Assembly (NCBI GenBank): GCA_022780025.1
Contig: JALEXS010000049.1
Location: forward strand, 1 to 38,237
DNA from: Mollicutes bacterium
Lineage (GTDB): Bacteria > Bacillota_I > Bacilli_A > RFN20 > CAG-826
DNA: 38,237 nt
Reading direction: 5' to 3'
The notes beneath the pieces were generated by a model. The model searched no databases. It saw only the letters and a list, made by a program, of their open reading frames with translations, and was not told the DNA's origin. The first letter of the stretch is position 1. Each line of letters begins with the position of its first letter. Position numbers and translations under genes: made by a program. Shown here in pieces: positions 492 to 30,874 of the stretch.

Positions 492-1844
492 TTACTTCTT
501 TAACGATAACGCTACAACCGTTTCAACGTGATATGTTCTAGGAAACATATCCACAAAGTCTATAGAATTTATATTGTAATATTCTTTTAATATTGATAAA
601 TCTCTAGCTAATGTTCCAACATCACAAGAGATATAAACAATCTTTTTAGGTGAAGATTTTATTAATGATTGAATAAATTTATCATCTAATCCTTTTCTTG
701 GTGGATCTACAAATACACAATCAAATTTTTCTTTAAACATATATTCACTAGCATCCATACAATAATAAGAAGCATTAGTAATATTATTAATTTTAGCGTT
801 AAGTTTAGCATCTTTAATAGCATCACTAACTATCTCAACTCCTACTATTTTTTTCAAAAACCCTGCAGAAGTCAATCCAATTGTTCCAATTCCACAATAT
901 GCATCAAGTACAGTATCATCTTTTGTTAAGTTAGCTTTTTCAAAAGCTAACTTATATAATACTTCACATTGATCATGATTTACTTGATAAAAAGATTTAG
1001 AAGAGATTCTAAATTTTACTCCTAATAAGTAATCTTCAATGTATCCTTTTCCATATAATACTTCTTCTTTTTCACCTAATATGACATTAGTTTTACGACT
1101 ATTAATATTTAATAATAAAGTAGTTATATTAGGACATGCTTTTATTAATGCTTTAGAAAATGTATTCTTATTTTTAAATTTATTATTAGTAACTACTAAA
1201 GTAACCATTATTTCTTTAGAAATTTTACCTACTCTAATTAATACATGTCTAATATCACCAGTTAGTTTATCTTCATCATAAGCAGTTATATGTAATTCTT
1301 TCATTAATCTAGAAATATTTTCTAAGATTTTAACGTGACAATCATCTTCTATTACACATTCTTTAATTGGTACTATATCGTGACTTTTAAATTTATAAAA
1401 GCCATATTCTAAACGATGTTGTTTATCATATCCAAAAGGAATTTGGATTTTATTACGATAATAATAAGGTTCTTTCATTCCATGAATTAAAATATCTTTA
1501 AAATTTAATTTAGCTATTTTATTAATAGTATTTGTTGCGATTAGTTTCTTATATTCTAATTCTTTTTGATAATCTAGATTTTGAAAAGAGCATCCACCAC
1601 AACTAGTAGCACATTTACATTTAGGATTAATACGATATTTACTAGTTTTAGTAAGTTTAACAATATGACCTACATCATAATCTTTTTTTCTATATAAAAT
1701 CTCGACATCTGCTTCTTCATCTATTAACAAAGAAGGAACAAATATTGTTCGATTATTATATTTAGCTAATCCTTGTCCATCAAAAGTAAAATCTACACAT
1801 TTTACATGGACAATTTTTTTATTAAATTGATTTTTAACCTTCAT
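492..1844 (-). CDS. rlmD: 23S rRNA (uracil-5)-methyltransferase, RlmD/RlmCD (TrmA/RumA) family
   Basis: This 450-residue protein has the complete RumA layout. An N-terminal TRAM RNA-binding domain spans about residues 8-65. A 4Fe-4S cluster is predicted from Cys76, Cys82, Cys85 and Cys163, with the same spacing as in E. coli RumA. A Rossmann methyltransferase domain follows, with the SAM motif DAYCGIGTIG at 314-323, DPPRKG at 380-385, the nucleophilic Cys407 in YISCDVGTLARD and the terminal general base in HVETVV (Glu441). The family transfers a methyl group from SAM to C5 of a uridine in 23S rRNA (U1939 in E. coli; U747 and U1939 by the single Bacillus enzyme RlmCD). Which site is used here cannot be read from sequence. 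The start overlaps the upstream hypothetical gene by 11 nt, suggesting translational coupling, and a hairpin at 312-338 probably ends the transcript. Confidence 0.93.
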   Translation of the reverse strand: MKVKNQFNKKIVHVKCVDFTFDGQGLAKYNNRTIFVPSLLIDEEADVEILYRKKDYDVGHIVKLTKTSKYRINPKCKCATSCGGCSFQNLDYQKELEYKKLIATNTINKIAKLNFKDILIHGMKEPYYYRNKIQIPFGYDKQHRLEYGFYKFKSHDIVPIKECVIEDDCHVKILENISRLMKELHITAYDEDKLTGDIRHVLIRVGKISKEIMVTLVVTNNKFKNKNTFSKALIKACPNITTLLLNINSRKTNVILGEKEEVLYGKGYIEDYLLGVKFRISSKSFYQVNHDQCEVLYKLAFEKANLTKDDTVLDAYCGIGTIGLTSAGFLKKIVGVEIVSDAIKDAKLNAKINNITNASYYCMDASEYMFKEKFDCVFVDPPRKGLDDKFIQSLIKSSPKKIVYISCDVGTLARDLSILKEYYNINSIDFVDMFPRTYHVETVVALSLKK

Positions 1845-2277
1845 TAATTATCTTTCCTATTGTTTCAATAGCATCAAAATAAGTAGGTTTTAAGCTATCT
1901 ACATTATTAATATTACCTAATACAAATTCTTCATATTCATTAATTTTATATTTATTAATTATTTTCTTAAATAATAATCTATTTGCTTTGTAGTCTAAGG
2001 AAATAGCACTACTTCCACATTGAATTACTATAAATTTAGGTATTTTAATTAGGAAATCTCTATTAAATAAGAATAGATTTTCAAAACTACGGTTACTAGT
2101 AAAGATTACTACACTATCTTTATCTATAAAATTTTTATATAAATCTACATCTTTTTCATCAAACTTTAAACTTTCGATATAGTAATCGTTAGATAATAAA
2201 ATGTCGCCAAATTTAATTATCAATGGCTTAATATCTTGATAAATAGATTTATCTAATAACACTAATATTCTTTTCAT
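1834..2277 (-). CDS. Hypothetical protein, 147 aa, co-transcribed with rlmD
   Basis: I do not recognise this protein. It is 147 residues with no signal peptide and no obvious membrane segment. Alternating hydrophobic strands (RILVLLDKSIY at the N-terminus, DSVVIFTSN mid-protein, IPKFIVIQCGSSAISLD) suggest a small alpha/beta, Rossmann-like fold, but no catalytic motif stands out. A GTG nine bases upstream (2286) is in frame, but it is part of the Shine-Dalgarno AGGTG (2288-2284), which sits 6 nt before the ATG at 2277, so the ATG is the better start. It overlaps rlmD by 11 nt and shares its promoter, so a role near RNA modification is possible but is only guilt by association. Confidence 0.75.
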   Translation of the reverse strand: MKRILVLLDKSIYQDIKPLIIKFGDILLSNDYYIESLKFDEKDVDLYKNFIDKDSVVIFTSNRSFENLFLFNRDFLIKIPKFIVIQCGSSAISLDYKANRLLFKKIINKYKINEYEEFVLGNINNVDSLKPTYFDAIETIGKIINEG

Positions 2278-2283
2278 TTTTTT

Positions 2284-2302
2284 CACCTGTTTAGATATTA
2301 TA
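2284..2302 (-). promoter_or_regulatory. -10 box and RBS of the hypothetical/rlmD operon
   Basis: On the minus strand a perfect TATAAT (2302-2297) lies 19 nt before the ATG at 2277, with AGGTG (2288-2284) in between. A poor -35 (TTGTGT-like) lies about 16 nt further upstream. This is a short but ordinary SD-containing leader and contrasts with the divergent gene at 2365. Confidence 0.6.
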
Positions 2303-2364: not shown

Positions 2365-5300
2365 ATGCGTAAAGGATTAATTAAAAACATATTTAAATGG
2401 GGATCTTTAAGTGCTTACATAATATGTGCTTTAACCATACTTATTGAAAGTGGTATTGATGGAAAAAATAGTGCTGATCAATCAAATTCTGTTACTGATC
2501 AGATTCAAGATGCTATTGATAAAAGTCATGATAATAAAACTATAAAAGAAATTACTAATTTTAATATTTCTTTTAATAATCCTAATAGTAATAATACTTA
2601 TTTTGTTGGAGATAATCTTACTTATACAATAGATTACACTCCTAGTGATACTAGTTTTAAAGAATTAACTTGGTCTATATTAGATCCTTCCATTTTAAAA
2701 GTTAGTGAAGCTACTCATACTATTTCTTTTGAAAAGAAAGGATATACTAAATTAACAGTTACTAGTAATAGAAAATCTTCTTTAGTTCAAGAATTTGAAT
2801 TTTATGTTCAAAATATTCCTGTTGAATCAATAGAAATTACTTCTAAACCTACTTACCCTTTAAATATTGGGGATAGTTTTGATATTTTAACTAATGTTTT
2901 ACCTAATAATGCTACTAATAAAAATTTAACTTATTATAGTAGTGATAATGGTGTTGTTGCTATTTCTAATAGTACATTATTTGCTAAAGGTTCAGGTAAA
3001 GCTACAATTTTAGTTTCTAGTGAAGATTCTCCTTCTATTAATGAATCTTTTGAAGTTGAAGTTAATAAACCTATTGAAACTAAATACTATATTAAAAGTA
3101 TCAATGTAAAAGATAATAATAAAATTTTAACTGAAAGAAATAAGTCACTAACTGTTACTGGGACTTATACTGATTCTTCAGCAGATTTTGATATTAATAA
3201 ACTTAATATATCAATATTAGATTCTAATGATTATATTCAAATTTTACAAAAAAAGTTGACTTCTAAAGGGAATTTTTCTTTTTTAGTGAGTTTAAATAAT
3301 TCTAAATTAGAAGAAATTAAAACATTAAACAATTATAAAATACCTTTAAGTGTTCATTATGAAGAGTTAGATGAATCATTTAAGAAAACAACTTATATTA
3401 CAGTTTCTAAACTTTTATTATTAAATAAATCTGATATTGGAAATGTCAATACAAACACTAAAGAGTTAAAGTATACACACTTTATGTCTTATGAAAGTGA
3501 AGTTAGTTTATATAAAGATGTTTTAAAAATTACTATTCCATTTAAAGTAAGTACAACGAATTATAATATCAATAATTATAGATGGGAAATATATACTAGT
3601 AATAATTCTAATTATGAAGTTAATACATATTTTAAAATGAGTTCTTCTTATAATTCTATATCTTTAACTCCTATTAGTAGTGATTTACCACCAAAAGGAT
3701 ATATAAGATATATACCTAATAAAGATATTATTGATGAATTCATTGATTTTAGTTTTAATTATTCAAATTATAAAGATGAAAATAGTAAAATAACAGATTT
3801 TAACTTTACTAAATTTAAAGAAAATAGTACTACTAATTTCTTTATAGAAAATGATGATAATTATAAAAATATCTTATCTACTTCTATTTCAGTTAGTTCA
3901 TCTACTCCAAGTAATGTTAAATCTAGTTTAATAAATAGTAGATTAATTATAGATTTAATTGATGATGATGGAGTAGTTAGTTTTATTGATGATGAAATAG
4001 GAAATCATATAGGATTAAAGTTTAATAAAGTAGGAACAGCTACTTTAACTTTAAAATCAGTATTAGCAACTAATTTATCTATTAAAAAATATTATTTAGT
4101 TGCTAATAATACTCCTAATAAAGCATCATTATTAGCTAATGGAGTTGAAGTTACATCAAATAATTTATCATTAGGAAAAGATCAAAAGATTGTTTTTGAT
4201 TCTAAAACATCATTTGTTACTAAATTTAGTGATAATTCTACTATTACAATTCCTTTATATTCAGATATTAGTTGGTCTTATGATAAAAAATATGAAAATA
4301 ATATAATCTTTGTTGATAGTACTCATACTATTCAAGGATTAAAGCAAGATAATAGTGAAGATAAAGCTATTATAGATTTTACTCTTAAATATAATAATAT
4401 TGATATAACTGATTTATTAATAATAGATTCAGTTAATGTTGTAGTTACTTATATTCCTATTGATTCTAAGGTATTTAATTTTAGTTATGAAACTGTATCT
4501 ATTATTAATGAATATAATTCTATTAACAAAGAATATACTAAAGTTCCTTTATATACTCAATTTTATATAAGACCTATATTTAATAATGATGCTACTAATA
4601 AAATTGTATCTTATAAGTCTAGTAATGATAAAATTTTAACGATTGATCCAGAAACTGGTTTAGCTACTGCAAATAAAATAGGTAAAATTACTATTACAGT
4701 TACATCTTTAGATGATGAATCTATTTCAATTAGTAAATCTATGACTATAATTGATACAGTTTCTCCATTTATATTAGATACTAATAAATTTAAGCCATTA
4801 TCTATTAAAGAAATATATAAAGATGATAACACTACTATTGATTATTATGATGTATCTTTAGAGTATGGTATTTCTTATCAAATTTATATAAAACCTTTAA
4901 AAGAATCTACATCTACTACATTGACATTTAAGCATTTAGATACTAGTAAAGAAAATAAAAAACATAGTGTTACCATTGACAAATCAGGAAGAATTACAAC
5001 AAAAGATATTGGTAAAGATATTATACAAATTATTTATGGAGATACTAAAGGTAATAACACTTATAGTCAAATAATTCATTTTAACGTAACTAGAAATCAT
5101 CGTTTTACTTTCCATGAACTTTCTCTTATTGTAAGAAAATCATTAGGACATTTTGGTTTATTTGCTTGTACTGCTTTAGTTGGTTTAATATTTATTTGTT
5201 TAGCTTTTAAAAATAATTTAATTAGAATTTATGCTTCTTTAGTTAGTATGGTTTTAGGCTTTAGTTTAGCAGGATTTAGTGAATTGATTCAAAAATATAC

Positions 5301-5460
5301 TCCAGGTAGAGCTTGTACTTGGACTGATATTGGTATTGATACATTAGGTTATGCTTTTACTGTTGTTATTTCTTTAATTGTTTTTGCATCAATAATATTA
5401 TTTAAATATATCTATAAAAAATATAAAAAAGATAAAGAAGAAATAAAAAACAAAGAGTAA
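2365..5460 (+). CDS. Ig-like (BIG2-type) repeat surface protein embedded in a split VanZ-family membrane domain
   Basis: 1031 residues. A first transmembrane segment (about 12-29) is followed by a stretch containing GKNSADQSNSVTDQI, which resembles the conserved region after the first helix of VanZ proteins. An extracellular region of about 850 residues follows, rich in Asn, Ser, Thr and Asp, with Ig-like/BIG2-type modules: about 66-148, 152-234 (with NNATNK and a G-x-A-T-I strand) and about 700-798 (NNDATNK...GKITITV). The C-terminus returns to VanZ: VRKSLGHF (923-930), ELIQKYTPGR (973-982), TDIGIDTLG (987-995) and three helices (about 927-948, 954-973, 989-1013), then a lysine-rich cytoplasmic tail. 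So the Ig array seems to sit in the loop between VanZ helices 1 and 2. VanZ homologues are mostly of unknown function; teicoplanin resistance should not be assumed. It is head-on to replication, monocistronic and probably leaderless. Confidence 0.8.
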   Translation: MRKGLIKNIFKWGSLSAYIICALTILIESGIDGKNSADQSNSVTDQIQDAIDKSHDNKTIKEITNFNISFNNPNSNNTYFVGDNLTYTIDYTPSDTSFKELTWSILDPSILKVSEATHTISFEKKGYTKLTVTSNRKSSLVQEFEFYVQNIPVESIEITSKPTYPLNIGDSFDILTNVLPNNATNKNLTYYSSDNGVVAISNSTLFAKGSGKATILVSSEDSPSINESFEVEVNKPIETKYYIKSINVKDNNKILTERNKSLTVTGTYTDSSADFDINKLNISILDSNDYIQILQKKLTSKGNFSFLVSLNNSKLEEIKTLNNYKIPLSVHYEELDESFKKTTYITVSKLLLLNKSDIGNVNTNTKELKYTHFMSYESEVSLYKDVLKITIPFKVSTTNYNINNYRWEIYTSNNSNYEVNTYFKMSSSYNSISLTPISSDLPPKGYIRYIPNKDIIDEFIDFSFNYSNYKDENSKITDFNFTKFKENSTTNFFIENDDNYKNILSTSISVSSSTPSNVKSSLINSRLIIDLIDDDGVVSFIDDEIGNHIGLKFNKVGTATLTLKSVLATNLSIKKYYLVANNTPNKASLLANGVEVTSNNLSLGKDQKIVFDSKTSFVTKFSDNSTITIPLYSDISWSYDKKYENNIIFVDSTHTIQGLKQDNSEDKAIIDFTLKYNNIDITDLLIIDSVNVVVTYIPIDSKVFNFSYETVSIINEYNSINKEYTKVPLYTQFYIRPIFNNDATNKIVSYKSSNDKILTIDPETGLATANKIGKITITVTSLDDESISISKSMTIIDTVSPFILDTNKFKPLSIKEIYKDDNTTIDYYDVSLEYGISYQIYIKPLKESTSTTLTFKHLDTSKENKKHSVTIDKSGRITTKDIGKDIIQIIYGDTKGNNTYSQIIHFNVTRNHRFTFHELSLIVRKSLGHFGLFACTALVGLIFICLAFKNNLIRIYASLVSMVLGFSLAGFSELIQKYTPGRACTWTDIGIDTLGYAFTVVISLIVFASIILFKYIYKKYKKDKEEIKNKE

Positions 5461-5506: not shown

Positions 5507-7093
5507 TTATTTATTTGTCATTAAACTCTTAACGAATTCTACATCATCATTATTGAGTCTAGGGAATAAAACTTCGCCTTTAGATACTTTTTTATTAGCT
5601 AAAACTTTAGTATCAAATACGTTGTTATAATCTCTTTCGGTTTCGTTTAAAGAAAGATAATCAAATACTTTATCTGCTTTAGTAACTAATATAGGTTTTA
5701 ACATTGCTGTTGAAATAGAAATTACATAAGCTAAATGAGCCATAACTGATTTTAGATTTTCAATTTTAGTTTCATCTTTAGCTAAAGCCCAAGGTGCATT
5801 ATCTTCAATATATTTATTAGCTACATTTAATAAATTCATTACATCAATATAAGCTTCTGTAATATGAAGATCATCCATTTTATTTTCAAAAGATACTTTA
5901 GTTTCTTTAGCCAAATCTTCTATAATTTTATCGTTATCATTTATTCCTTCTTTATATTCAGGAATAATTCCATCAAAATACTTAATTATCATTGACAAAG
6001 TACGGCTAACTAAATTTCCATAATTATTAGCTAAATCCATGTTAATTCTTTCGATAAATTGTTCCGGAGTAAATTGTCCATCTTGTCCAAATATTATTTC
6101 TCTAGCAAAATAATATCTTAAAGCATCTACACCATATTTTTCTATTAATGGGAATGGTGAAACAACGTTTCCTTTAGATTTAGACATTTTCCCATCTTTC
6201 ATCATTAATAAGCCGTGAACAAAAACTTTATCTGGTAGCCTTAATTTCAAGGCACTTAAAAATTCTGGCCAATAGATTGTATGGAATCTTGTGATATCAG
6301 CTCCAATAACATGAATAATTTCACTTTCTTCATCTTCCCAGAATTTCTTATATAAGGTTTCATTACTACTTCTATATCCTAACGCACTTAAATAATTAAA
6401 TAAAGCATCAAGCCAAACATAAGCAACATGCTTTTCGTTTTCCAAAATAGGAACACCCCAAGAGAATGAAGTTCTACTAACACAAAGATCTTCTAATCCT
6501 GGTTTTATGAAGTTATTTTCCATTTCATGCTTTCTACTTACAGGATAAATACTGCCTTCTTTTTCAAAAAAAGTCTGCAATTCTGGAAGATATTTTTTGG
6601 TTTTGAAAAAATAACAATCTTCCATTTCTTTTTGTACAGGTCTACCACAGTCTGGACATAAGTGCTCTTCCCCAACTTGAGTATCAGTCCAAAAAGATTC
6701 ACAAGGGGTACAATACCATCCTTCATATTGTCCTAAGTAAACATCATCGTTTTTTATAAAATCAGAAAAAACGCTTTGAACTACATGGATATGTCTTTCA
6801 TCAGTTGTTCTTATAAAATCATCGTTAGAAATTTGCATTACATCCCATAATGTTTTAAACTTAGCAACAATTTCATCAACATATTCTTTAGGAGATTTAC
6901 CTGCTGCTTTTGCATTCTTTTCAATTTTTAATCCGTGTTCATCTGTACCAGTTAAAAAATATACTTCGAAATGTCTTTCTCGTTTATAACGTGCAAAAAT
7001 GTCACATATAGTTGTGCAATAAGCATGTCCAATATGTGCGTTACCACTTGGATAATATATTGGTGTAGTAATATAAAATCTTTTCTTTGTCAT
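5507..7093 (-). CDS. metG: Methionyl-tRNA synthetase, short form
   Basis: This class I aminoacyl-tRNA synthetase charges tRNA-Met in the cytoplasm. The 528 residues show HIGH at 20-23, the connective-peptide zinc ligands Cys128, Cys131, Cys146 and Cys149, and KMSKS at 302-306, followed by the helical anticodon-binding domain. The protein ends at about residue 528, without the C-terminal EMAPII-like tRNA-binding domain carried by the longer B. subtilis form. That domain is absent in several bacterial lineages, and this does not look like a truncation. The ATG at 7093 has an AAGGAG (7104-7099) 5 nt upstream. The gene lies just behind rpmE and its hairpin terminator, with no separate promoter visible in the 49-bp gap. 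In B. subtilis metS sits next to tatD; here the two are 28 kb apart on opposite sides of the origin. Confidence 0.96.
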   Translation of the reverse strand: MTKKRFYITTPIYYPSGNAHIGHAYCTTICDIFARYKRERHFEVYFLTGTDEHGLKIEKNAKAAGKSPKEYVDEIVAKFKTLWDVMQISNDDFIRTTDERHIHVVQSVFSDFIKNDDVYLGQYEGWYCTPCESFWTDTQVGEEHLCPDCGRPVQKEMEDCYFFKTKKYLPELQTFFEKEGSIYPVSRKHEMENNFIKPGLEDLCVSRTSFSWGVPILENEKHVAYVWLDALFNYLSALGYRSSNETLYKKFWEDEESEIIHVIGADITRFHTIYWPEFLSALKLRLPDKVFVHGLLMMKDGKMSKSKGNVVSPFPLIEKYGVDALRYYFAREIIFGQDGQFTPEQFIERINMDLANNYGNLVSRTLSMIIKYFDGIIPEYKEGINDNDKIIEDLAKETKVSFENKMDDLHITEAYIDVMNLLNVANKYIEDNAPWALAKDETKIENLKSVMAHLAYVISISTAMLKPILVTKADKVFDYLSLNETERDYNNVFDTKVLANKKVSKGEVLFPRLNNDDVEFVKSLMTNK

Positions 7094-12846: not shown

Positions 12847-13959
12847 TTATTTTAAATTTAATCTTTCTTTGACATCTTGAAGAAGTCTTACTTCTTCATC
12901 TTTATCACCAGGAAGAATACGTTTTAAAATCTTATTGCTTCTTTCTAAAGCACGATCGACTTCGCTCGTGCTTTTTTCTATTCTATAAGCATAAAATAAA
13001 TAATATCTTATAGAGAACATATCATTACATAGCCTAATATATCTTTTTGTTTCATCATTTAATTGATCATAAATTTCTTTAGCTTTATCATCTTCATTTA
13101 ATAAGAAATAAACATATGATTTATAAATTGTTGCATCTCTTAATGTTGATTTTGAAACGTTTTTTGGATTATTAATTACATTATCAGCAATTTCAATTGT
13201 TTTATCTGGATCTTTATTAACATAATTTAAAGCACTTAATAAATTAACTTTTGCAGCAAAATCAGTGATTGTATCAAATGTTTTTATATCACCATAGTCT
13301 GTTCCAAGTAATTTACAACCTTTAACTCTAAGTAATTCATTATAAGCTTCAGTATTAATCTTTTTATTTAAAAATACTAATCTATATCCATCATTCATAG
13401 AATCTAATTTTGCAGGGAAATAATTATAAATATTAATCATTGCACCAATACAAGTAACAATAAAGAAGCCATATTTAACTAACATTAAAGAAGTGTTAAT
13501 GGTGCTATCTGCAATATAATTAAATAAGAAAATGCATACTGCTACTTCAATTAAGAAAAATACTATTGGTAAAAATATATTAGCCATTGGTTTAGCTTTT
13601 TCTTTTTCAGGTGTAATAATAGTTTCACCAGTTAATCCATCAAAAGTTTTAAATAAAGAAAATTTCCATTTTAATTTATCTTCAGCTTCTTTTTCTTTAT
13701 AAAAGGCAAATGAAAGAATATTGCATGATAAAATTGAATATCCACCAATTTTAGCACCTAATAAATGTCCTAATTCAATCAAAACACCATTTAAAACAAT
13801 ACCTATTAATAAACAAACAAGCAAAAACAAAAAAGATGCTCCACCACTAGGTATTAAGCCACTTTCAATAGATGGTTTTACTATTGTAAGTCCTACTATT
13901 ACGGCAAATGCAATCATAATAATATAGACTAATAAACTCATTACATCATCTTTAGTCAT
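12847..13959 (-). CDS. Polytopic membrane protein, degenerate M50 (site-2 protease)-like, with TPR-like C-terminal half
   Basis: 370 residues. Hydrophobic segments lie at about 10-27, 42-61, 128-148 and 158-180. The second one ends in VLIELGHLLGAKIGGY (59-74), which matches the M50 site-2 protease pattern HExxH followed by a K-x-x-G-Y turn, except that the first His is Ile61; Glu62 and His65 remain. A later FPAKLDSMNDGYRL segment (181-194) resembles the second, Asp-containing S2P motif (D190-G191). The cytoplasmic C-terminal half (about 200-370) is helical, with repeats resembling TPR units (IYKSYVYFLLNEDDKAKEIYDQL). So it may be an inactive rhomboid/S2P-like scaffold, or an enzyme using an altered metal site. 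Function unknown. The ATG at 13959 follows a GGGGGT Shine-Dalgarno. It lies 73 bp from the TetR gene but probably has its own promoter. Confidence 0.65.
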   Translation of the reverse strand: MTKDDVMSLLVYIIMIAFAVIVGLTIVKPSIESGLIPSGGASFLFLLVCLLIGIVLNGVLIELGHLLGAKIGGYSILSCNILSFAFYKEKEAEDKLKWKFSLFKTFDGLTGETIITPEKEKAKPMANIFLPIVFFLIEVAVCIFLFNYIADSTINTSLMLVKYGFFIVTCIGAMINIYNYFPAKLDSMNDGYRLVFLNKKINTEAYNELLRVKGCKLLGTDYGDIKTFDTITDFAAKVNLLSALNYVNKDPDKTIEIADNVINNPKNVSKSTLRDATIYKSYVYFLLNEDDKAKEIYDQLNDETKRYIRLCNDMFSIRYYLFYAYRIEKSTSEVDRALERSNKILKRILPGDKDEEVRLLQDVKERLNLK

Positions 13960-14032: not shown

Positions 14033-14548
14033 CTATTTTACTAAACATTCATCAATGAAACTGAACTCTTTTGTAAATCTTTTGAATATAGAACATAAGT
14101 TTTTATAATTAAAATTATTTTCTTTATATAAAGAAATAGTTATTTCATTAAGACCTTTTGATATAAATTTTATAAAATTAATATCACAAAGTTTTTTCTT
14201 ATAATCATATAAGCCTTTTAAACTTCTATAATAATAAGAACTAACAAATTCTTCTAATATTGAAGAGGCAAAAGTATCTAATATAGCTTTACATAAATAG
14301 TCGTTATTTTTTAAAAAAGCCTCTAAATCCTCAATTATTTTTTTAAAATCGCTATTTTTATTAGACTCAATTTTCATCTCATAAAAGATAGAAAAAATTA
14401 AATCATATATACTTGGATAATGATAATAAAATGTTTGTCTTTTCATTTTTAATTTATCACAAAGCATGATAACACTTATGTCTTCTATTGGATAAATTTT
14501 TAATAATTCTAAAAAAGAATCTTGGATCTTTTTTTCACTCTTACTCAT
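14033..14548 (-). CDS. TetR-family transcriptional regulator
   Basis: 171 residues. The N-terminal helix-turn-helix covers about residues 5-46 and ends in the family signature KLKMKRQTFYYHYPSIYDL (33-51), with YYHY at the DNA-contact helix end. The C-terminal ligand/dimer domain is helical and of the type found in short TetR-like regulators. It is the last gene of a three-gene operon: its ATG overlaps the TGA stop of the P-type ATPase (ATGA), giving translational coupling. A repressor encoded at the end of its own operon commonly controls that operon by feedback, and a 15-bp palindrome over the operon promoter (19820-19834) is the obvious candidate operator. The ligand is unknown; a peptide, drug or metal-linked signal is conceivable given the transporters. 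Confidence 0.85.
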   Translation of the reverse strand: MSKSEKKIQDSFLELLKIYPIEDISVIMLCDKLKMKRQTFYYHYPSIYDLIFSIFYEMKIESNKNSDFKKIIEDLEAFLKNNDYLCKAILDTFASSILEEFVSSYYYRSLKGLYDYKKKLCDINFIKFISKGLNEITISLYKENNFNYKNLCSIFKRFTKEFSFIDECLVK

Positions 14549-21692: not shown

Positions 21693-24248
21693 TTATTCGA
21701 CTTCTAGAGGGTTTTCACTAGAATTATCGGCATTTTCATTATTATCAGGTGTAACTTCTTCTTCAGTATGAGGAATAATTGTAAAGCCAGATACTAATTC
21801 ATTTTCTCTTAAATTAATAACTTTTACACCTTGAGAATTTCTACCACATTCTCTAACTTGACCAAGTGGAGTTCTAATAACTGTACCAGCATTAGTGATA
21901 ACAACAACATCTTCATCACCTTTAACTATGTTCATACCAACTAACAAACCAGTCTTATCAGTTGTTTTGATAGTAATAACACCACCAGCTCCACGTTTAG
22001 TTTGTCTATAATCTTCTAATGGTGATAATTTGCCTAAGCCGTTTTCACTTAAAACAAATACTTTATCACCGCTAAGAGAAGTAGATAAAGCAACAACTTC
22101 ACCACCTTTAGTGTTAATACCTTTAACACCTGCAGCAGTTCTACCCATTGCTCTAACATCATCTTCTTTAAATAAGCAAAGCATACCTTTATTAGTAGCT
22201 AAAGCGATTAAAGCGTCGCCATCTGTAACACAAACATTTAATAAACTATCATCATCTTTAAATGTAATAGCATATTTTCCATTTGCATTAATACGTTGGA
22301 ATTCTTCTAATTTTGTACGTTTTACGATACCTTTTTTAGTTGCAAAGAATAAATATTTTTCATTATATTCATCACAATCAATTAAAGAGACAACTCTTTC
22401 GTCTTTTTCTAAATCAATTAAATTACCAACTGGTATACCTTTTCCTTGTCTAGAAGCAGCTAAAATTTCATGACCTCTTCTTCTATAAACTCTACCTTTA
22501 TTAGTAAAGAATAATATATCAGTATGAGTATTACTTGAAACCATTAACTTAACTTCATCATCTTCATATACTGTCATACCTTTAACACCAGTTCCACCAC
22601 GATTTTGTGCTTTAAATTCATCATTAGACATACGTTTAATGTAACCTTTTTCAGTTAAAGTAATAACAATATCTTCTTCAGGGATTAAATCTTCATCATC
22701 TAAAGAAGTAATTTCGGTACTGATAAAGCTTCTTCTATCATCACCATATTTCTTTTTAATTTCTTCTAATTCTTTAATAACTTCAGCTAATAAGTTTTCA
22801 TAACTTGAAAGAATCATAGTATAACGATTGATATTATTAATTAATAATTCTTTTTCATCTAATAATTTTTGAGTTTCTAGTCCGGTTAATCTACCTAAAG
22901 TCATAGCAACAACAGCTTTAGCTTGAGGTTCACTTAAACCAAATTTTTCCATCAAATTATTAGAAAAATCTTGGGGATTAGCAGAGTTTTTTGCTAAATG
23001 AACGACTTCATCAATGTTGTCATGAACTTTTAAAAGACCTTCAACAATATGTTTTCTATCTTCATCTTTCTTCTTTAAGAATTTAATTTTTCTTTCTTCA
23101 ACATTGATTTGGTGATCTAAATAATCACTAATTAATTCTTTAAGTGATAAAACTTTAGGTGCGCCATTTGTAATACATAAATTAATAACACCATAAGAAA
23201 CTTCTAATTGTGTATTTTTAAATAATTGATTTAAAACAACTTGAGGAACAACATCTCTACGGCATTCAATTTCGATATTAACATTACCTTTTGAATAATC
23301 TTTTATAGAGGTAATACCTTCAATTACTTTATCACGAGCAAGTTCACCGATTTTACTAACTAAAGCAGCTTTATTAACTTGATAAGGAATTTCACTGATA
23401 ATAATTTTGCTTTTACCATTACTCATTTCCTTAATTTCGGTTTTTGCTCTTAATCTAAAAGTACCTCTACCTTTTTCATAAGCATCACGAACGCCGCCTA
23501 AACCATAAATAATTCCACCTGTAGGAAAATCTGGTCCTTTAATAATTTTCATTAATTCTTCAGTAGTAATATCTCTATTTTTACTAAAAGCAACGATACC
23601 ATCGATAATTTCTTTTAAATTGTGTGGTGGCATTTTAGTAGCCATACCAACAGCAATACCATCACTTCCGTTTATTAATAAATTAGGAATTTTAGAAGGT
23701 AAAACTTCTGGTTCTTCTAATGAACCATCATAGTTTGGTACAAAATTAACTGTATCTAAATTGATGTCTCTAACCATTTCTGAAGCAATTTTGCTCATTC
23801 TACATTCGGTATAACGCATAGCAGCAGCTTCATCACCGTCCATAGAACCAAAATTACCATGTCCATCAGCTAATAAATAACGCATTGAGAAAGGTTGAGC
23901 TAATCTAACAATTGTATTATAAATTGCAGAATCACCATGAGGGTGATATTTTCCCATGACTTCACCAACAATTCTTGCTGATTTTACAAATGGTTTATCG
24001 CTAGTATAACCAGCATCATACATACCATAAATACATCTTCTATGGACTGGTTTTAATCCATCTCTAACATCTGGAATAGCTCTAGAGACAATAACAGACA
24101 TTGCATAATCTAAGAAACTATTTTGAACTTCAGTAGATATTTCAGTATCTTTTAAAGAAGGTACAATTCCAGCTTCATAAGAGGCATTTTCTTGTTTTAA
24201 TTTTTCATCTTCAGTTAATATTTCTTCATTTTTAATATCTTCACTCAT
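21693..24248 (-). CDS. gyrA: DNA gyrase subunit A
   Basis: 851 residues: the breakage-reunion subunit of the A2B2 enzyme that introduces negative supercoils. The catalytic Tyr is Tyr146 in MRYTECRM. The quinolone pocket reads HPHGDSAIYN (102-111), so the Ser83-equivalent is retained (Ser107) but the Asp87/Glu88-equivalent is Asn111. A GyrA-box-like QNRGGTGVKG near residue 530 and the following beta-pinwheel repeats identify it as gyrase rather than topoisomerase IV ParC. The N-terminus is extended by about 30 mostly acidic residues before the conserved SFLDYAMSVIV region, and the C-terminus ends in a short acidic tail (EEEVTPDN...). AGGAGG precedes the ATG by 6 nt; the gyrB stop is 11 nt upstream. 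Confidence 0.97.
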   Translation of the reverse strand: MSEDIKNEEILTEDEKLKQENASYEAGIVPSLKDTEISTEVQNSFLDYAMSVIVSRAIPDVRDGLKPVHRRCIYGMYDAGYTSDKPFVKSARIVGEVMGKYHPHGDSAIYNTIVRLAQPFSMRYLLADGHGNFGSMDGDEAAAMRYTECRMSKIASEMVRDINLDTVNFVPNYDGSLEEPEVLPSKIPNLLINGSDGIAVGMATKMPPHNLKEIIDGIVAFSKNRDITTEELMKIIKGPDFPTGGIIYGLGGVRDAYEKGRGTFRLRAKTEIKEMSNGKSKIIISEIPYQVNKAALVSKIGELARDKVIEGITSIKDYSKGNVNIEIECRRDVVPQVVLNQLFKNTQLEVSYGVINLCITNGAPKVLSLKELISDYLDHQINVEERKIKFLKKKDEDRKHIVEGLLKVHDNIDEVVHLAKNSANPQDFSNNLMEKFGLSEPQAKAVVAMTLGRLTGLETQKLLDEKELLINNINRYTMILSSYENLLAEVIKELEEIKKKYGDDRRSFISTEITSLDDEDLIPEEDIVITLTEKGYIKRMSNDEFKAQNRGGTGVKGMTVYEDDEVKLMVSSNTHTDILFFTNKGRVYRRRGHEILAASRQGKGIPVGNLIDLEKDERVVSLIDCDEYNEKYLFFATKKGIVKRTKLEEFQRINANGKYAITFKDDDSLLNVCVTDGDALIALATNKGMLCLFKEDDVRAMGRTAAGVKGINTKGGEVVALSTSLSGDKVFVLSENGLGKLSPLEDYRQTKRGAGGVITIKTTDKTGLLVGMNIVKGDEDVVVITNAGTVIRTPLGQVRECGRNSQGVKVINLRENELVSGFTIIPHTEEEVTPDNNENADNSSENPLEVE

Positions 24249-24259
24249 ATTTAGCCTCC

Positions 24260-26362
24260 TTAAATATCAAGATTTTTAACGAATTTAGCATTCTTTTCAA
24301 TAAATTCACTACGTGGAGCAACTTCTTCACCCATTAAATCACTGAATACTTGATCTGCTAACATTGCATCATCAACAGTAACTCTAAGCATTTTACGCTT
24401 TGTTGGATCCATTGTAGTTTCTTCTAATTGATCAGCATCCATTTCACCAAGTCCTTTATATCTTTGGTAAGGATAACCTGGCTTTAATTCAAGTTTAGAT
24501 CTAACTATTTCAAGTTGTTCATCACTATAGCAATAATATGCTTGTCCTTTATATTCAATTTTATATAAAGGAGGTTGAGCAATATAAATATAGCCATGAT
24601 CGATTAAAGGTTTCATAAATCTATGGAAGAATGTTAATAATAAGATTCTAATATGAGAACCATCAACATCAGCATCGGTCATAATAACGATTTTATGATA
24701 TCTAATTTTAGCAATATCAAAATCTTCACCAAATCCAGCACCAATTGCAGCAATCATATTACCAATTTCAGCATTATCATAAATTCTATGAATTTGAGCT
24801 TTTTGGACATTTAAAATCTTACCTCTTAAAGGTAAAATTGCTTGAGTTCTACTATCTCTACCGGCTTTAGCACTACCACCAGCAGAATTTCCTTCAACAA
24901 TAAATAATTCGCATTCTTCTGGATTATTTGAACTACAATCAGCTAATTTTCCAGGTAATGTGTTTATTTCTAAGACATTTTTACGACGAATATTATCTTT
25001 AGCAGCTCTAGCAGCAAGTCTAGCTTCATAAGCGCTTTTAATTTTATTCATAATAATAGTAGCGATTGGTTTATTTTCTAATAAGAATTTTTCTAATTTT
25101 TCACCAACAACGTTACTAACTAATTTTTTAACTTCAAGATTACCTAATTTACCTTTTGTTTGGCCTTCATATTGTGGATTAGGGTGTTTAACTGAAATAA
25201 TTGCAGTTAAACCTTCTTTACAATCATCAACTGTAATCTTTTCTTTATCATTATCTTTTAAGAATTTATTATTACGAGCATAGTTATTAAATACACGAAC
25301 AATTGCTAAATTAAAGCCATCTTCATGCATACCACCATCGCCAGTAGCAACATTATTACAATAGCTATAAATTTTATCGTTATAAGAACTTGTATATTGC
25401 ATAGCTACTTCAACATAAATTAATTCTTTATTATCGTTTTCGATAAATTCTTGAGCACCATCGCAATAAATAACATCTTCAAATAATCTATTAGCATCTT
25501 TATTTAAGAATTGAACGTATTCTTTAATACCACCTTCATAGCAATAAGATACATCAACTTGTGGGGTTACTCTTAAATCATGTAAATTAATTCTTACACC
25601 TCTATTTAAGAAAGCCATTTGTCTTAATCTATTATTTACAATATCAAAATTAAAGACTGTAGTTTCTTTAAAGATTTTAGGATCTGGTTTAAATGTAACA
25701 AAAGTACCGGTATCATCGCATTTATCAATAATTTTTAATCTATCAACAGCGTGTCCACCATTTTCAAATCTTATATAATAAACATTTCCATCACGATGTA
25801 CATAAATATCAACAAAACTACTTAAAGCGTTAACAACACTAGCACCAACACCATGTAATCCTCCAGATACTTTATATCCTCCACCACCAAATTTACCACC
25901 AGCGTGAAGGACAGTATAAACAGTTTCAACAGCGCTTAATCCTGTTTTTTCAACTACATCGCAAGGAATACCACGGCCATTATCTTTAACTGTAATAGAA
26001 TTATCAGGATTAATGGAAACATCAATTTCATTACAATATCCAGCTAAAGCTTCATCAATACCATTATCAACAATTTCCCATACTAAATGATGTAAACCAG
26101 TGCTACTAGTAGAACCGATATACATACCAGGTCTTTTTCTAACAGCATCAAGACCATCTAAGACAGTAATATCTTTACCTGTATAATCTTCTTTAGCTTT
26201 TTCTAATTCTTTTTCATCAATTCCAGTAATAATTGTATCTGAAAGATTTTCATCTACATTCTTTTCTTGCTCACTGAAACCTTCTTTTTCATCAATTAAT
26301 TGACTTTCAAGAGTTTCTTCTTCATTAATTTCTTCATCTTTCTTTTTTTCTTCTACCATCAT
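24260..26362 (-). CDS. gyrB: DNA gyrase subunit B
   Basis: 700 residues: the ATPase subunit of gyrase. The GHKL ATPase site is intact (HLVWEIVDNGIDEA with general base Glu96, then DNGRGIP), followed by the transducer domain and the TOPRIM domain with VEGNSAGGSAK (489-499) and the metal-binding TDADVDGSH further on. The usual EGDSAGGSA motif has Asn492 in place of Asp, the position of the known D426N quinolone change in E. coli. The first 58 residues are a strongly acidic, low-complexity extension before TGKDITVLDGLDAVRKRPGMY, absent from most gyrases. Two ATGs lie together (26362 and 26359); GGAGG is 4 and 7 nt away, so either may be used. The start overlaps the recF stop by one base. Confidence 0.97.
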   Translation of the reverse strand: MMVEEKKKDEEINEEETLESQLIDEKEGFSEQEKNVDENLSDTIITGIDEKELEKAKEDYTGKDITVLDGLDAVRKRPGMYIGSTSSTGLHHLVWEIVDNGIDEALAGYCNEIDVSINPDNSITVKDNGRGIPCDVVEKTGLSAVETVYTVLHAGGKFGGGGYKVSGGLHGVGASVVNALSSFVDIYVHRDGNVYYIRFENGGHAVDRLKIIDKCDDTGTFVTFKPDPKIFKETTVFNFDIVNNRLRQMAFLNRGVRINLHDLRVTPQVDVSYCYEGGIKEYVQFLNKDANRLFEDVIYCDGAQEFIENDNKELIYVEVAMQYTSSYNDKIYSYCNNVATGDGGMHEDGFNLAIVRVFNNYARNNKFLKDNDKEKITVDDCKEGLTAIISVKHPNPQYEGQTKGKLGNLEVKKLVSNVVGEKLEKFLLENKPIATIIMNKIKSAYEARLAARAAKDNIRRKNVLEINTLPGKLADCSSNNPEECELFIVEGNSAGGSAKAGRDSRTQAILPLRGKILNVQKAQIHRIYDNAEIGNMIAAIGAGFGEDFDIAKIRYHKIVIMTDADVDGSHIRILLLTFFHRFMKPLIDHGYIYIAQPPLYKIEYKGQAYYCYSDEQLEIVRSKLELKPGYPYQRYKGLGEMDADQLEETTMDPTKRKMLRVTVDDAMLADQVFSDLMGEEVAPRSEFIEKNAKFVKNLDI

Positions 26363-27432
26363 TAATCCTCCGATAAAATTACTTGATTATCTTTTACTTC
26401 ATAAGTATTAGATAAATTTATATTTCCTGTACCAGTAATAAATACTTGTTCAAATTCATTTAAATATTTAATAAGCAATTGTTCATGATTCTTGTCTAAT
26501 TCACTTAATACGTCATCTAATATAACAACAGGTTTTGAGTCGTTATCGTTTTTTAAATAGTATGTAGATAATTTTAAAGCTAAAATAACCATTCTATTTT
26601 CACCTTGAGAGCCAAATTTTGATATATCCTTATTATCTACTTCAATATTAAAATCTTCTTTGTGTACGCCTTTTGTAGTGATTTTTTTATTAAGATCTTC
26701 TTTATAAGATAAATTATATAATTTAAGTGCTTCTTTTTTATAATTTTCAAGATTATCAATAAAAGGTTTATAAATGATTTTTATATCTTTAGTTTTATTA
26801 TTAATCTTTTCATAAGTTAGACTTATTAATTCATTTAATTTATCTATATATTTTTTTCGATAATTATAAATCACGTATGAATAATCAATTAATTGATAAG
26901 TTAACGCTTTTATTAAATTTATATCAATATTATCTTTTTTTAATTCATCATTACGACTTTTTAAGATTTTTTCATAATTAGATAAAGTATTTCGATATTC
27001 ATTATTTAATCTAGAAATTAATAAATTTAAAAAATATCTTCTTTCATTAGGTGATTCTTTCATTAAATTTACATCATTAGGAGTAAATACGATTGTATTA
27101 AAATATTTTAATAATTCACTTATTTTAAAAACTTTTGAATTATCAATGTTTATTTTTTTACCATCTTTATCTAAATAAATACTTACTTTATTAGTTTTAT
27201 TTGAATTCTTAATAGTTCCTTTTACTAATAAGTGATTTTCATTTATTTTAATTAAATCTAAGATTGTATTTGTTCTAAAACTTCTTCCATAAGATAAAAA
27301 GTTTATTGCTTCTACAATATTTGTTTTACCACTACCATTATTTCCAAAAATATAATTAATTCCTTTTTTAAAAGATAAAGATAACTCTTTATAATTACGA
27401 AAATTAATTAAATCAATACTTTCAAGAATCAT
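26362..27432 (-). CDS. recF: DNA replication and repair protein RecF
   Basis: 356 residues, an SMC-like ABC ATPase that binds single-strand/double-strand junctions and, with RecO and RecR, loads RecA at gaps. Walker A GNNGSGKT is at 30-37, the signature-like GSQGENRMVILALKL (containing the Q-G-x-x-R element) lies in the C-terminal third, and Walker B PVVILDDVLSELD follows. Length is slightly below the usual 360-375. The start codon overlaps the yaaA stop as ATGA, and the stop overlaps the gyrB start, so translation of yaaA, recF and gyrB is coupled. recR, which acts with RecF and normally lies near tadA in Bacilli, is not in this window. Confidence 0.96.
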   Translation of the reverse strand: MILESIDLINFRNYKELSLSFKKGINYIFGNNGSGKTNIVEAINFLSYGRSFRTNTILDLIKINENHLLVKGTIKNSNKTNKVSIYLDKDGKKINIDNSKVFKISELLKYFNTIVFTPNDVNLMKESPNERRYFLNLLISRLNNEYRNTLSNYEKILKSRNDELKKDNIDINLIKALTYQLIDYSYVIYNYRKKYIDKLNELISLTYEKINNKTKDIKIIYKPFIDNLENYKKEALKLYNLSYKEDLNKKITTKGVHKEDFNIEVDNKDISKFGSQGENRMVILALKLSTYYLKNDNDSKPVVILDDVLSELDKNHEQLLIKYLNEFEQVFITGTGNINLSNTYEVKDNQVILSED

Positions 27433-27656
27433 TTACTTATTTCAAAAAACAGTGAGTTATTAATATTAACTATGTCTTTATCTCTAAGTTTCTTTCCACG
27501 TTGAGTAGTAAGTTCATTATTAACAAAAATTTTATTAGTCATAATAAATTGTTTAGCTTCACCGCCGTTAGTTATTACATCAGCAAATTTTAAAAATTGG
27601 CCTAATGTAATATATTCAGTAGAAATTTTTACTATTTTTACATTTTCTTTAGACAT
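27429..27656 (-). CDS. yaaA: S4-domain RNA-binding protein YaaA (RlbA)
   Basis: 75 residues, almost all of it one S4 RNA-binding domain (TLGQFLKFADVITNGGEAK, then FVNNELTTQRGKKLRDKD). The gene between dnaN and recF is a fixed feature of Bacilli origins; the B. subtilis product has been linked to ribosome assembly, though its exact target is poorly defined. AAGGAG lies 7-8 nt before the ATG at 27656. It ends in TGA within ATGA at the recF start. A perfect inverted repeat (27666-27688) overlaps its Shine-Dalgarno and a TATAAT box, which could give it both its own promoter and a means to mask the ribosome site in read-through mRNA from dnaN. Confidence 0.93.
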   Translation of the reverse strand: MSKENVKIVKISTEYITLGQFLKFADVITNGGEAKQFIMTNKIFVNNELTTQRGKKLRDKDIVNINNSLFFEISK

Positions 27657-27665
27657 AAAATAACT

Positions 27666-27688
27666 CCTTTAATATTATATATTAAAGG
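27666..27688 (-). promoter_or_regulatory. Inverted repeat containing the yaaA -10 box and part of its RBS
   Basis: CCTTTAATA, 5-nt loop, TATTAAAGG form a perfect 9-bp dyad. On the minus strand its centre holds TATAAT (27679-27674), with a TTTAAA 17 nt upstream as a weak -35, and its last bases are the AAGG of the yaaA Shine-Dalgarno. Transcripts starting here cannot form the hairpin, while dnaN read-through transcripts can. There is no T-run after it, so it is not a standard terminator. Confidence 0.45.
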
Positions 27689-27725
27689 AAGTCTATTTTA
27701 AAGAGTTTTTGCTTATTTAAAATGC

Positions 27726-28847
27726 TTAATATGTTCTAACTGGTGTAATTAGTTGAATTACAGAATTATCGTTTTTATTTAAGATAGTAAATGGTTTCAT
27801 TTCACCTAAGAAATTAATTGTAACATCTTCGCAGTTTAATGCTTTAATAGCACTCTTAACGTATTCGTTATTAAATGAAATTTCTAATCTATCACCTTTA
27901 AATTTAAAATTACTTATATTTTCAACACCGCTACCAATTTGTTGAGATTTAGAACTTACTTCAACTTTATTTTCGTTCATTGTTAATTTAACAATAAATT
28001 CACGATCACTTGAGAATAAAGAAACTCTTTCCATAGCGCTAACTAATTCATTGCTATTAACTTCTAATGAATAATAGAAAACCTTAGGAATAATATTTCT
28101 AGTATTTGGATAATCACCAACAATTAAGGTGGATTGAATTAATGTATTATCTAAGCAAAATAAAACTTTTTTATCACTTATATAAAATTCTATAGCGTTT
28201 TCAGTAGAAATTGTTCTTAATACTTCTTGTAATGTTTTACCAGGAATATTAGCATTTAATTTCTCGTTAACTGTTACTTCTAATTCTTTTCTAGCTAATC
28301 TAGCTCCATCTGTTGCTGTAAAAATTAATTTTGATGTATCACTTTCAATATTTACTGCAGTTAATTGAGGTCTATTATCTTTTTGTGATACCGCAAAAGA
28401 AACTTGGTTAATAGTTTCAGAGAAAGTTTTTGTTAATAAAGTTATATGAGCTCCAACTTCTTCAAAATCTATATCTTTAAATTCTTCTAATCTAATACCA
28501 TTTAACTTAAAGTTAGATTTATCATTTTCAATTCTAACAATAGAATCATCGATTACTTCAAAAGATACTTCATCTCCATCAATTCTTTTAATAATTTCAG
28601 TTAATAAAAAAGAATTAACTAAAATACCACCATAAACCATATCTCTTATGATTTGTTTATCGTTTACTATAATTGGTAAATAATGTCTTATTGATATAGT
28701 TCCATTAGTTCCTGTTATATATAAACCTCTATCGACTAATTCTAATTTTAAATTGCATAAAATTGGGTCAGTGCTTTTTTGAGGACTTACTCTACTAGCG
28801 ATTAGAAGAGCTTTTAGAAAATTATCTCTTACAATTTTAAATTTCAT
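27726..28847 (-). CDS. dnaN: DNA polymerase III sliding clamp (beta subunit)
   Basis: 373 residues, the normal length for the three-domain beta clamp, which forms a ring dimer around DNA and tethers the replicative polymerase and many other partners through its hydrophobic cleft. The N-terminus (MKFKIVRDNFLKALLIASRVSP) and the C-terminal LITPVRTY that lines the partner-binding pocket are both canonical. It follows dnaA by 109 bp on the same strand. AAAGGA lies about 8 nt before the ATG. The dnaA-dnaN spacer holds two DnaA boxes (28908-28924), so DnaA may control this gene as in other bacteria. Confidence 0.97.
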   Translation of the reverse strand: MKFKIVRDNFLKALLIASRVSPQKSTDPILCNLKLELVDRGLYITGTNGTISIRHYLPIIVNDKQIIRDMVYGGILVNSFLLTEIIKRIDGDEVSFEVIDDSIVRIENDKSNFKLNGIRLEEFKDIDFEEVGAHITLLTKTFSETINQVSFAVSQKDNRPQLTAVNIESDTSKLIFTATDGARLARKELEVTVNEKLNANIPGKTLQEVLRTISTENAIEFYISDKKVLFCLDNTLIQSTLIVGDYPNTRNIIPKVFYYSLEVNSNELVSAMERVSLFSSDREFIVKLTMNENKVEVSSKSQQIGSGVENISNFKFKGDRLEISFNNEYVKSAIKALNCEDVTINFLGEMKPFTILNKNDNSVIQLITPVRTY

Positions 28848-28907
28848 AATTCGTTCCTTTCTTGTTATTTATTTATAATAAATATATATAATAATATTAA
28901 TAATGAG

Positions 28908-28924
28908 TGTGGAAATGTGGATAA
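28908..28924 (-). promoter_or_regulatory. Pair of DnaA boxes in the dnaA-dnaN spacer
   Basis: On the minus strand a consensus TTATCCACA (28924-28916) is followed by ATTTCCACA (28916-28908), in tandem with a shared base. They lie between dnaA and dnaN, and could be a second origin cluster (as in the bipartite B. subtilis oriC) and/or an operator for dnaN. Confidence 0.75.
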
Positions 28925-28956
28925 CTACCTATTTTTTACAAAAAGTATCGATTCCA

Positions 28957-30318
28957 TCACGATAATTGCTTTTTTAATTTGTTGATAACTGTTAACATTT
29001 TGTCATCAGTTTTCAACATTTTTTCAATTTTATTCACACTGTACATAATTGTAGCGTGATCTCTATTAGAGAATAACTCTCCAATTCTAACAAAAGATAC
29101 ATCTAACATTGTTCTAATAAGATATATAGCGACGTGTCTAGCGGTAGCAACTTGACTAGTTTTTAATTTACCAGTTATTTGAGGAACACTTACACTATAA
29201 TAACTACTTACAGCATTTAATATTTTTTGTTCGCTTATTTTTGATTTATTTTTCTTTGTATCTATTAAAGAAGATAAAGCATCGTTAGTTATATCCATAT
29301 CTATATGGCTTACATGATTAATTGACGAATAAAAGATTAATCTATTTAAAGCACCTTCTAAGTTTCTAATACTGTTTTTAAAGTTAAAAGCGACAAATTT
29401 AATAACTTCTTCATCAAAATTTTCAATAGATAAGCCAGAATTAACTATTTTTTTCTTTAAAATCTCTTCACAAAGTTCAGCTGTAGGAGTTTGTATTGAT
29501 ATTGTTAAACCTCTTAAGAAACGAGTGACTAATCTATTGTCTAATCCATTAAGTTCGTTAGGTAAACGATCACAAGTCAAAACTATTTGCTTATTGGTTT
29601 TAACTAAAGATTCGAAAACACTAAAGAAAAATTCTTCTGTTTTTGTTTTATTTTGTAACATTTGAATATCATCTATTAATAAAATATCAAAACTTAAAAT
29701 ATAATCTTTTAAATTATCTTCAGTTTTTTCTCCGTTAACATATTTAATATATTCATCAATAAATTCTTGAGATGAACAAAATAAGATTTTCTTTATTGGA
29801 GTCCTTTCTTTTATATAGTTTCCAATAGCGTTTAATAAGTGTGTTTTTCCTAAGCCTGATTGACTATAAATGAATAGTGGATTATAGTCGGTTCCTGGTG
29901 CACTTGCGATATATAAAGCAGCTGTGTAAGCTTCTTGATTAGTTGATCCAACAACGTAATTATCAAAATTATATGCGGGTTCTAGATAGTTATTTTCAAA
30001 AAAACGAGGTTTTTTGATTAAATCTTTATTTTTATTTTCTTGTTTTTTTAAATCTTCTTCGAGACCGTAAACAAGTTTAAAATTTGTTCCACTGACATTA
30101 TTTACTATATCTAAAAGCATGTCGTTGTACTTGTCTTCAAGAATCTTTGTAGATAAAGAATTAGCACAACTAATGATCATTTTATCGTTATCTATTTTGA
30201 AAATATACGTATCTTTGAAAAACGCATCGTAAACACGATCTTCATTTAATGTAGCCTTAACTTTTTCTAAAATTCTTTTCCGAAGCATGTTCACTTCGCT
30301 AACACTCGACAAATCCAT
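28957..30318 (-). CDS. dnaA: Chromosomal replication initiator protein DnaA
   Basis: 453 residues with all four domains: N-terminal interaction domain (about 10-88), variable lysine-rich linker, AAA+ ATPase (about 112-330) and C-terminal DNA-binding domain with TARHVAIYLIRTML and the DnaA signature FSNRDHATIMYSV. The P-loop reads YSQSGLGKTHLL (151-162); the first glycine of the usual GxxxxGKT is Ser152. Walker B is ILLIDDIQML (212-221). DnaA binds the boxes in the adjacent spacers and opens the origin. The ATG at 30318 has AGAAGG 8 nt upstream. A TATAAA/TAAAAT-rich sequence at about 30325-30365 probably contains the promoter, but no box pair is convincing. Confidence 0.97.
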   Translation of the reverse strand: MDLSSVSEVNMLRKRILEKVKATLNEDRVYDAFFKDTYIFKIDNDKMIISCANSLSTKILEDKYNDMLLDIVNNVSGTNFKLVYGLEEDLKKQENKNKDLIKKPRFFENNYLEPAYNFDNYVVGSTNQEAYTAALYIASAPGTDYNPLFIYSQSGLGKTHLLNAIGNYIKERTPIKKILFCSSQEFIDEYIKYVNGEKTEDNLKDYILSFDILLIDDIQMLQNKTKTEEFFFSVFESLVKTNKQIVLTCDRLPNELNGLDNRLVTRFLRGLTISIQTPTAELCEEILKKKIVNSGLSIENFDEEVIKFVAFNFKNSIRNLEGALNRLIFYSSINHVSHIDMDITNDALSSLIDTKKNKSKISEQKILNAVSSYYSVSVPQITGKLKTSQVATARHVAIYLIRTMLDVSFVRIGELFSNRDHATIMYSVNKIEKMLKTDDKMLTVINKLKKQLS

Positions 30319-30375
30319 AATAAATACCTTCTATATTTTACTAGTTGTTAATTAATTTATAAAGTAGAAAAGAGG

Positions 30376-30398
30376 AAATATTAAGTTTTCCACATTTT
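30376..30398 (+). repeat. 23-bp perfect direct repeat with DnaA box, copy 1
   Basis: Identical over 23 bases to 30565-30587 (189 bp apart); it contains AAGTTTTCCACATTTT. A third, shorter match (AAGTTTTCCACATTT) lies at about 30509-30523. The extended identity beyond the 9-bp box suggests duplication, or selection on the flanks. Confidence 0.85.
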
Positions 30399-30564
30399 GA
30401 TTCTAAAAATGTTCGATATCATGATAAAAATAGCTTTTCCACAACTTGAAAATGTGGATAAATGTGGAAAGATTTCCACATAACAATCAAAATTGTGAAT
30501 AAATAATAAAGTTTTCCACATTTCAACAATTTTGTATATATAAAAACTATCGACAACATCGATA

Positions 30565-30727: not shown

Positions 30728-30736
30728 ATTATACAT

Positions 30737-30871: not shown

Positions 30872-30874
30872 TTA

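Follow-up and report, generated by a model that had tools for sequence, protein, structure and literature searches.

Known VanZ proteins and related architectures

VanZ proteins are common in bacteria. Their biochemical role is not established, and the present proposal has them catalyze cleavage or transfer at lipid-linked precursors of walls and polysaccharides. In the main text of their survey of the Lipocone superfamily, Burroughs and colleagues (PMC12419801) propose a lipid II model for VanZ-2 (PF04892), predict outward-facing pockets, and describe fusions of VanZ to extracellular ligand-binding domains, including Ig domains, with ligand-regulated catalysis as the suggested consequence. 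The published fusions are arranged as SP+X+TM+Lipocone or Lipocone+TM+X. In that account, handles, caps, and clasps are known to occur in the H1-H2 linker, and TelC, CapCone, and ClaspCone carry linker elaborations that cover the pocket. Members of the superfamily are characterized by a cone-shaped bundle of four helices, with the pocket at one end, and by chemistry on lipid head groups.

The protein encoded at positions 2365 to 5460 of the window (the whole 38,237-nucleotide stretch analyzed) shares with VanZ-2 the four core helices, the H1-H2 handle, the ExxQ and DxxxD motifs and, by predicted topology, the outward-facing pocket. It differs in that approximately 850 residues of Ig modules stand between the handle and H2, and in an H2 motif, RKxxGH, that is one residue longer than the published RKxxH. 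Like the published fusions, it combines VanZ with extracellular Ig modules, but here X lies inside the Lipocone domain and is tethered at both ends. TelC, CapCone, and ClaspCone likewise elaborate the linker, although with short caps or clasps and no long Ig array. Short VanZ proteins that are intact (such as L049, L051, L082, and L107, from the same order) have both halves, the motifs, and the helix plan, whereas their H1-H2 linkers span 26 to 40 residues and contain no Ig modules. Mammalian PepT1 and PepT2 are also multi-pass membrane proteins with Ig-like modules in one extracellular loop. They belong to a transporter family unrelated to VanZ and have two such modules only. The first-pass annotation knew of no described system with this architecture. 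A long Ig array inserted in the H1-H2 linker was indeed not found in the main text of PMC12419801 or elsewhere in the openly readable literature, but Ig-VanZ fusions as a class are known in other arrangements.

An array of Ig-like modules interrupts a VanZ domain

The open reading frame at 2365-5460 encodes a VanZ domain into which an Ig array is inserted; its parts are as follows.

2365..5460, plus strand: VanZ gene with the Ig array in the H1-H2 linker, 1031 residues (exact reading frame bounds, Pfam)
2371..2451, plus strand: H1 of the VanZ domain, residues 3-29, the first transmembrane helix (AF2, homology to H1 of short VanZ relatives)
2455..2541, plus strand: G33-x-x-S36-x-x-x-S40 motif and handle helix, residues 31-59 (conservation; handle present in both models)
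2545..5109, plus strand: extracellular array of about eight Ig-like modules, residues 61-915 (Pfam, AF2, Foldseek)
5110..5205, plus strand: H2, residues 916-947, with the RKSLGHF motif and H929 as a predicted pocket residue (AF2, alignment)
5215..5295, plus strand: H3, residues 951-977, with E973 and Q976 of ExxQ (AF2, alignment)
5320..5454, plus strand: H4, residues 986-1030, with D988 and D992 of DxxxD; R982 lies just before H4 (AF2, alignment)

When the whole protein was compared to Pfam, the VanZ profile matched residues 901-1005 (profile positions 34-124 of 126) with 34.1 bits, above the gathering score of 30.1 bits. The first-pass annotation had read the gene as a split VanZ domain whose halves, once joined, should match the VanZ profile, and this was borne out: residues 912-1031 alone scored 33.5 bits (profile 62-124), and joined to residues 1-57 they scored 43.0 bits over positions 3-124 of 126. 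A near full-length VanZ domain is thus reached only with the halves joined, and all of its helices are present in the AlphaFold2 (AF2) model. The N-terminal part alone (residues 1-57) had no Pfam match and was therefore tested separately, using a profile built from the N-terminal part (H1 and motif) of 18 short VanZ proteins of about 165 residues that are intact and belong to the same order. With this profile, the N terminus of the 1031-residue protein reached 22.0 bits (E 5.6e-6, Z=1000), and at least 16 bits were obtained for 34 of 40 inserted relatives; three of the 40 (L038, L062, and L063) fell below 10 bits, so the motif erodes in places. Among 1049 control N termini, the two that exceeded 9.0 bits are both N-terminal halves of other Ig-VanZ genes cut by runs of N, and none of the approximately 1047 true controls scored above 9 bits. 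By these profile comparisons, each of the two parts, N- and C-terminal, is homologous to the corresponding end of intact short VanZ proteins.

The AF2 model, made from a 20-sequence alignment (mean pLDDT, 81.8; pTM, 0.44), has helices at residues 3-29 and 33-59, strands from 65 to 909, and helices at 916-947, 951-977, and 986-1030. In a structure model of the intact short relative L107, helices lie at 2-28, 35-51, 61-90, 95-122, and 130-160. The five helices follow in identical order in the two proteins, which places the array after the handle helix and before H2. Its earlier placement in the H1-H2 loop holds, except that it starts after the second, handle helix and not directly after helix 1. 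The handle, a helix typical of the VanZ-Skillet clade, corresponds to residues 33-59 here and 35-51 in the short relative; S36 and S40 are invariant and G33 is nearly invariant among 20 short, mid, and long proteins. Only three helices, not the complete set that would have spoken against a split domain, follow the array, and H1 precedes it; the gene thus departs from the SP+X+TM+Lipocone plan, in which a complete Lipocone comes after X and TM. By homology, H1 probably packs against H2-H4. The N terminus, the C terminus, and the H2-H3 loop are lysine rich, and a four-helix topology with both termini inside and the array outside would fit. No solved structure related to VanZ by sequence was found, and a fold search with the short VanZ model yielded no match at E <1.

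The Ig-like loop of about 850 residues noted earlier is present, although only three of its approximately eight modules are of the Big_2 type (PF02368) in Pfam (55.6 bits for the whole protein over three stretches, cutoff of 22.8 bits). The modules outside these stretches had no Big_2 match in Pfam and appear Ig-like by predicted structure only; the count of about eight is a reading of the AF2 strand list. A fold search with the whole model returned nuclear pore chains, S-layer proteins, Robo, and cadherins at TM-scores of 0.04 to 0.25, and these matches therefore tell only that the region is an Ig array. Searches of plasmid and phage collections gave matches to the Ig modules only. Judging from the topology, the array would extend above the pocket on the outer side of the cell and, fixed to the membrane at both of its ends, would form a loop and not a rod.

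Predicted pocket residues are conserved in short and inserted proteins

In an alignment of 67 proteins, H929, E973, Q976, R982, D988, and G995 are identical in 23/23 short and 44/44 inserted forms; of the 70 proteins considered, none was excluded for missing motifs. The DxxxD motif of H4 corresponds to D988-IGI-D992, where D988 is present in 67/67 proteins and D992 in 58/67, the remainder having N. The R, K, and H of the H2 motif RKSLGH are kept, with the spacing one residue longer than RKxxH in the 23 short and 44 inserted relatives alike. The six invariant residues are kept although the VanZ base is only 49 to 58% identical between near relatives. This conservation argues that, whatever the activity of VanZ may be, the inserted forms have retained it. 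The predicted pocket residues are the H, E, Q, R, and D.

Distribution of inserted VanZ proteins

A search of genome contigs with the single protein gave no match, and an alignment query was needed to find relatives. VanZ was matched in 151 of the 245 genomes of the GTDB order, and, as the first-pass annotation had anticipated for related genomes, the same architecture recurs: VanZ frames of 500 residues or more occur in at least 63 of the 245, which puts the inserted form in dozens of gut bacteria related to the window genome. Among 70 VanZ-2 proteins examined in detail, the H1-H2 linkers fall into three classes, of 26 to 40 residues (25 proteins), 365 to 465 residues (24 proteins), and 757 to 960 residues (17 proteins), with four left unclassed. 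From their lengths and the strand list, we estimate that the mid and long classes hold roughly four and eight modules. The short, mid, and long versions found in nature allow comparison, and the architecture is a well-defined means of linking an outer array to an enzyme in the membrane.

Two further families of the class (G307 and G511) also contain inserted VanZ proteins, as do contigs labeled Clostridia, where Pfam did not name the modules of the inserts that were scanned. On one contig labeled Clostridia bacterium (L102:866-6230), three inserted-VanZ genes of 575, 609, and 581 residues are consecutive. The tree of short and inserted forms requires four changes, of which well-supported branches force only one, so a single and a multiple origin of the insertion are both compatible with it. 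The genus of the window genome has named relatives that include Candidatus Onthovivens merdipullorum. At least 11 of the 25 other genus genomes have no VanZ match, so the function is dispensable. In one genome with an intact long form, a second VanZ copy has decayed and contains several stop codons (G006:C36:5630-6202).

Genomic setting and divergence

The gene lies between metG and an rlmD-like gene.

492..1844, minus strand: rlmD-like RNA methyltransferase, left edge of the insertion site (metG-rlmD site comparison)
1834..2286, minus strand: divergent reading frame of 150 residues without a Pfam match; a similar-sized frame is at the same place in L033
5446..5476, no strand assigned: terminator-like hairpin of 12 pairs between the convergent VanZ and metG genes
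5507..7093, minus strand: metG, right edge of the insertion site (metG-rlmD site comparison)

The VanZ gene is solitary, being divergent from the 150-residue frame and convergent with metG, and comparison of the relatives' neighborhoods revealed no conserved operon partner. The metG-rlmD pair is kept throughout the genus. Ig-VanZ stands between the two genes only in G000 and G017 and adjoins metG in G020, where the contig ends after the gene; it is absent from the other readable metG-rlmD sites, at several of which metG and rlmD are 8 to 50 bp apart. Ig-VanZ was therefore gained at these few sites or lost elsewhere. The long VanZ genes of other genus members are located at different places in the genome.

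Across the shared sites, metG is 76 to 79% and rlmD 74% identical, and the VanZ-Ig protein is 34 to 36% identical. Within the protein, identity falls from 49 to 58% in the VanZ base to 32 to 44% at the array ends (the membrane-near modules) and 25 to 31% in the mid-array (residues 241-720), a gradient that would suit a conserved base bearing an exposed tip that changes.

Cell wall and polyprenyl enzymes of the host

The window genome, which is 94.7% complete, contains no match to PF00905, PF08245, PF01255, or PF00953, the profiles for transpeptidases (penicillin-binding proteins [PBPs]), Mur ligases, UppS, and MraY/TagO-type enzymes; the positive controls for this search were matched in 10 to 14 of 14 genomes. 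A further 13 genomes of the genus lack UppS as well, and six of these carry a long VanZ; genome incompleteness is thus an unlikely cause. Some genomes of the genus do have UppS (e.g., G008, G004, and G011), and it is absent from 14 including that of the window; this patchiness suggests recent loss of polyprenyl carrier synthesis. Within the genus, UppS is present in 4/4 genomes with a short VanZ and absent from 7/8 genomes with a long VanZ and UppS data, a pattern that shared ancestry may explain. Related RFN20 families have been reported as peptidoglycan deficient and lacking sortases (PMC10868615), and the window genome probably belongs to one of them.

PBPs were detected in only 29 of the 245 genomes of the order, so VanZ is common without a wall. 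We also considered insertion as a response to wall loss, in cells with neither a wall nor sortase anchors. PBPs occur in 12/63 genomes with inserted forms versus 17/182 without; wall-less genomes do not carry inserted forms more often, and wall loss therefore fails to explain the insertion. In cells that lack wall enzymes, UppS, and MraY/TagO, a VanZ that is conserved and has an intact predicted pocket offers a natural test of the lipid-linked-precursor proposal.

Candidate functions

The first-pass annotation had suggested adhesion, cell-surface scaffolding, or sensing, which stay candidate roles. Our best guess is a receptor-coupled lipid head-group enzyme. The protein would be a VanZ-2-type Lipocone with about eight Ig-like modules in its extracellular H1-H2 linker, just after the handle helix. 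The array would bind a surface ligand, whether a host or bacterial glycan, a protein, or a neighboring cell, and, once bound, would act through H1/handle and H2 to control or position a lipid head-group reaction in the pocket. The substrate in this host would be an outer-leaflet phospholipid or glycolipid and not lipid II. With enzymatic activity and ligand both proposed, we give this explanation about even chances; that the openly readable literature yielded no enzyme activity for any VanZ-2 protein counts against it, as do the lack of a conserved operon partner, the dispensability implied by the genus genomes with no VanZ match, and a fast-changing array that fits plain adhesion or phage pressure equally well. 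More tentatively, the doubly membrane-tied Ig loop may be a receptor that opens and closes the VanZ pocket in cells without peptidoglycan and polyprenyl carriers, which, if true, would mean a VanZ-2 substrate other than lipid II.

The VanZ bundle could instead be no more than a compact four-helix anchor for an adhesin or S-layer-like array, its pocket chemistry being irrelevant. Foldseek matched the array to the S-layer proteins EA1, Sap, and SbsC (E 2e-17 to 1e-13, at TM-scores of only 0.11 to 0.14 by query length), phmmer matched a Sap fragment (E 0.0048), and an anchor of this kind would suit wall-less families reported to lack sortases (PMC10868615). However, the pocket residues are kept in all 44 inserted proteins as strictly as in the short ones, and the PBP counts do not tie the insertion to wall loss; we regard the anchor as possible but doubtful. 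In an improbable alternative, the array is a variable surface facing phage or host and is marked above all by diversification under attack, and VanZ modifies surface lipids or glycolipids in the contest. The contrast between the distal array (25 to 31% identity) and the flanking metG (76 to 79%) agrees with this, as does a gene that comes and goes at the metG-rlmD site, and for Skillet-3 fusions the main text of the Lipocone paper suggests diversification through an arms race (PMC12419801). Weak constraint on spacer modules would also give fast change, however, and contact with phages is conjectural.

Two further explanations fare worse. That the whole-protein VanZ match covers the C terminus only might suggest an ordinary signal peptide followed by Ig modules and an incomplete, three-helix VanZ remnant. 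This is contradicted by the homology of the N-terminal part to H1 and the handle of intact VanZ, by the invariant S36 and S40, and by the lack of any transmembrane helix directly before RKxxGH that could serve as H1, and we consider it very unlikely. Action on lipid II or undecaprenyl-linked precursors, as proposed for VanZ in walled bacteria in connection with lipoglycopeptide resistance, has in its favor the family resemblance and the finding that VanZ lowers teicoplanin binding in S. aureus and S. pneumoniae (PMC7146870). The host genome lacks the transpeptidase, Mur ligase, UppS, and MraY/TagO-type enzymes, however, and UppS is missing from the 13 other genus genomes noted above; lipid II is thus an unlikely substrate, the lipid II model for VanZ-2 does not fit this host, and we find this last explanation scarcely credible.

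Other features of the window

Positions 21693-38090 encode gyrA, gyrB, a recF-like gene, dnaN, and dnaA, then yidC, jag, mnmE, and tatD, and continue with a Toprim/DUF4093 protein, an rRNA adenine dimethylase, and a GHMP kinase. This is a replication-origin region, and the VanZ-Ig gene is therefore close to the origin. For some Onthovivens genomes, a reassignment of CGG to tryptophan has been predicted (PMC13092985); the 29 genes of the window contain a single CGG codon, codon 13 of dnaA (28957-30318), and the VanZ-Ig gene contains none. The reading frames at 12847-13959 (370 residues) and 14033-14548 (171 residues) are without a Pfam match, and the former has a relative in L034. The YidC-like insertase at 31206-33071 starts with a lipobox-like sequence (LILSSC), and about 390 residues precede its 60KD_IMP domain.
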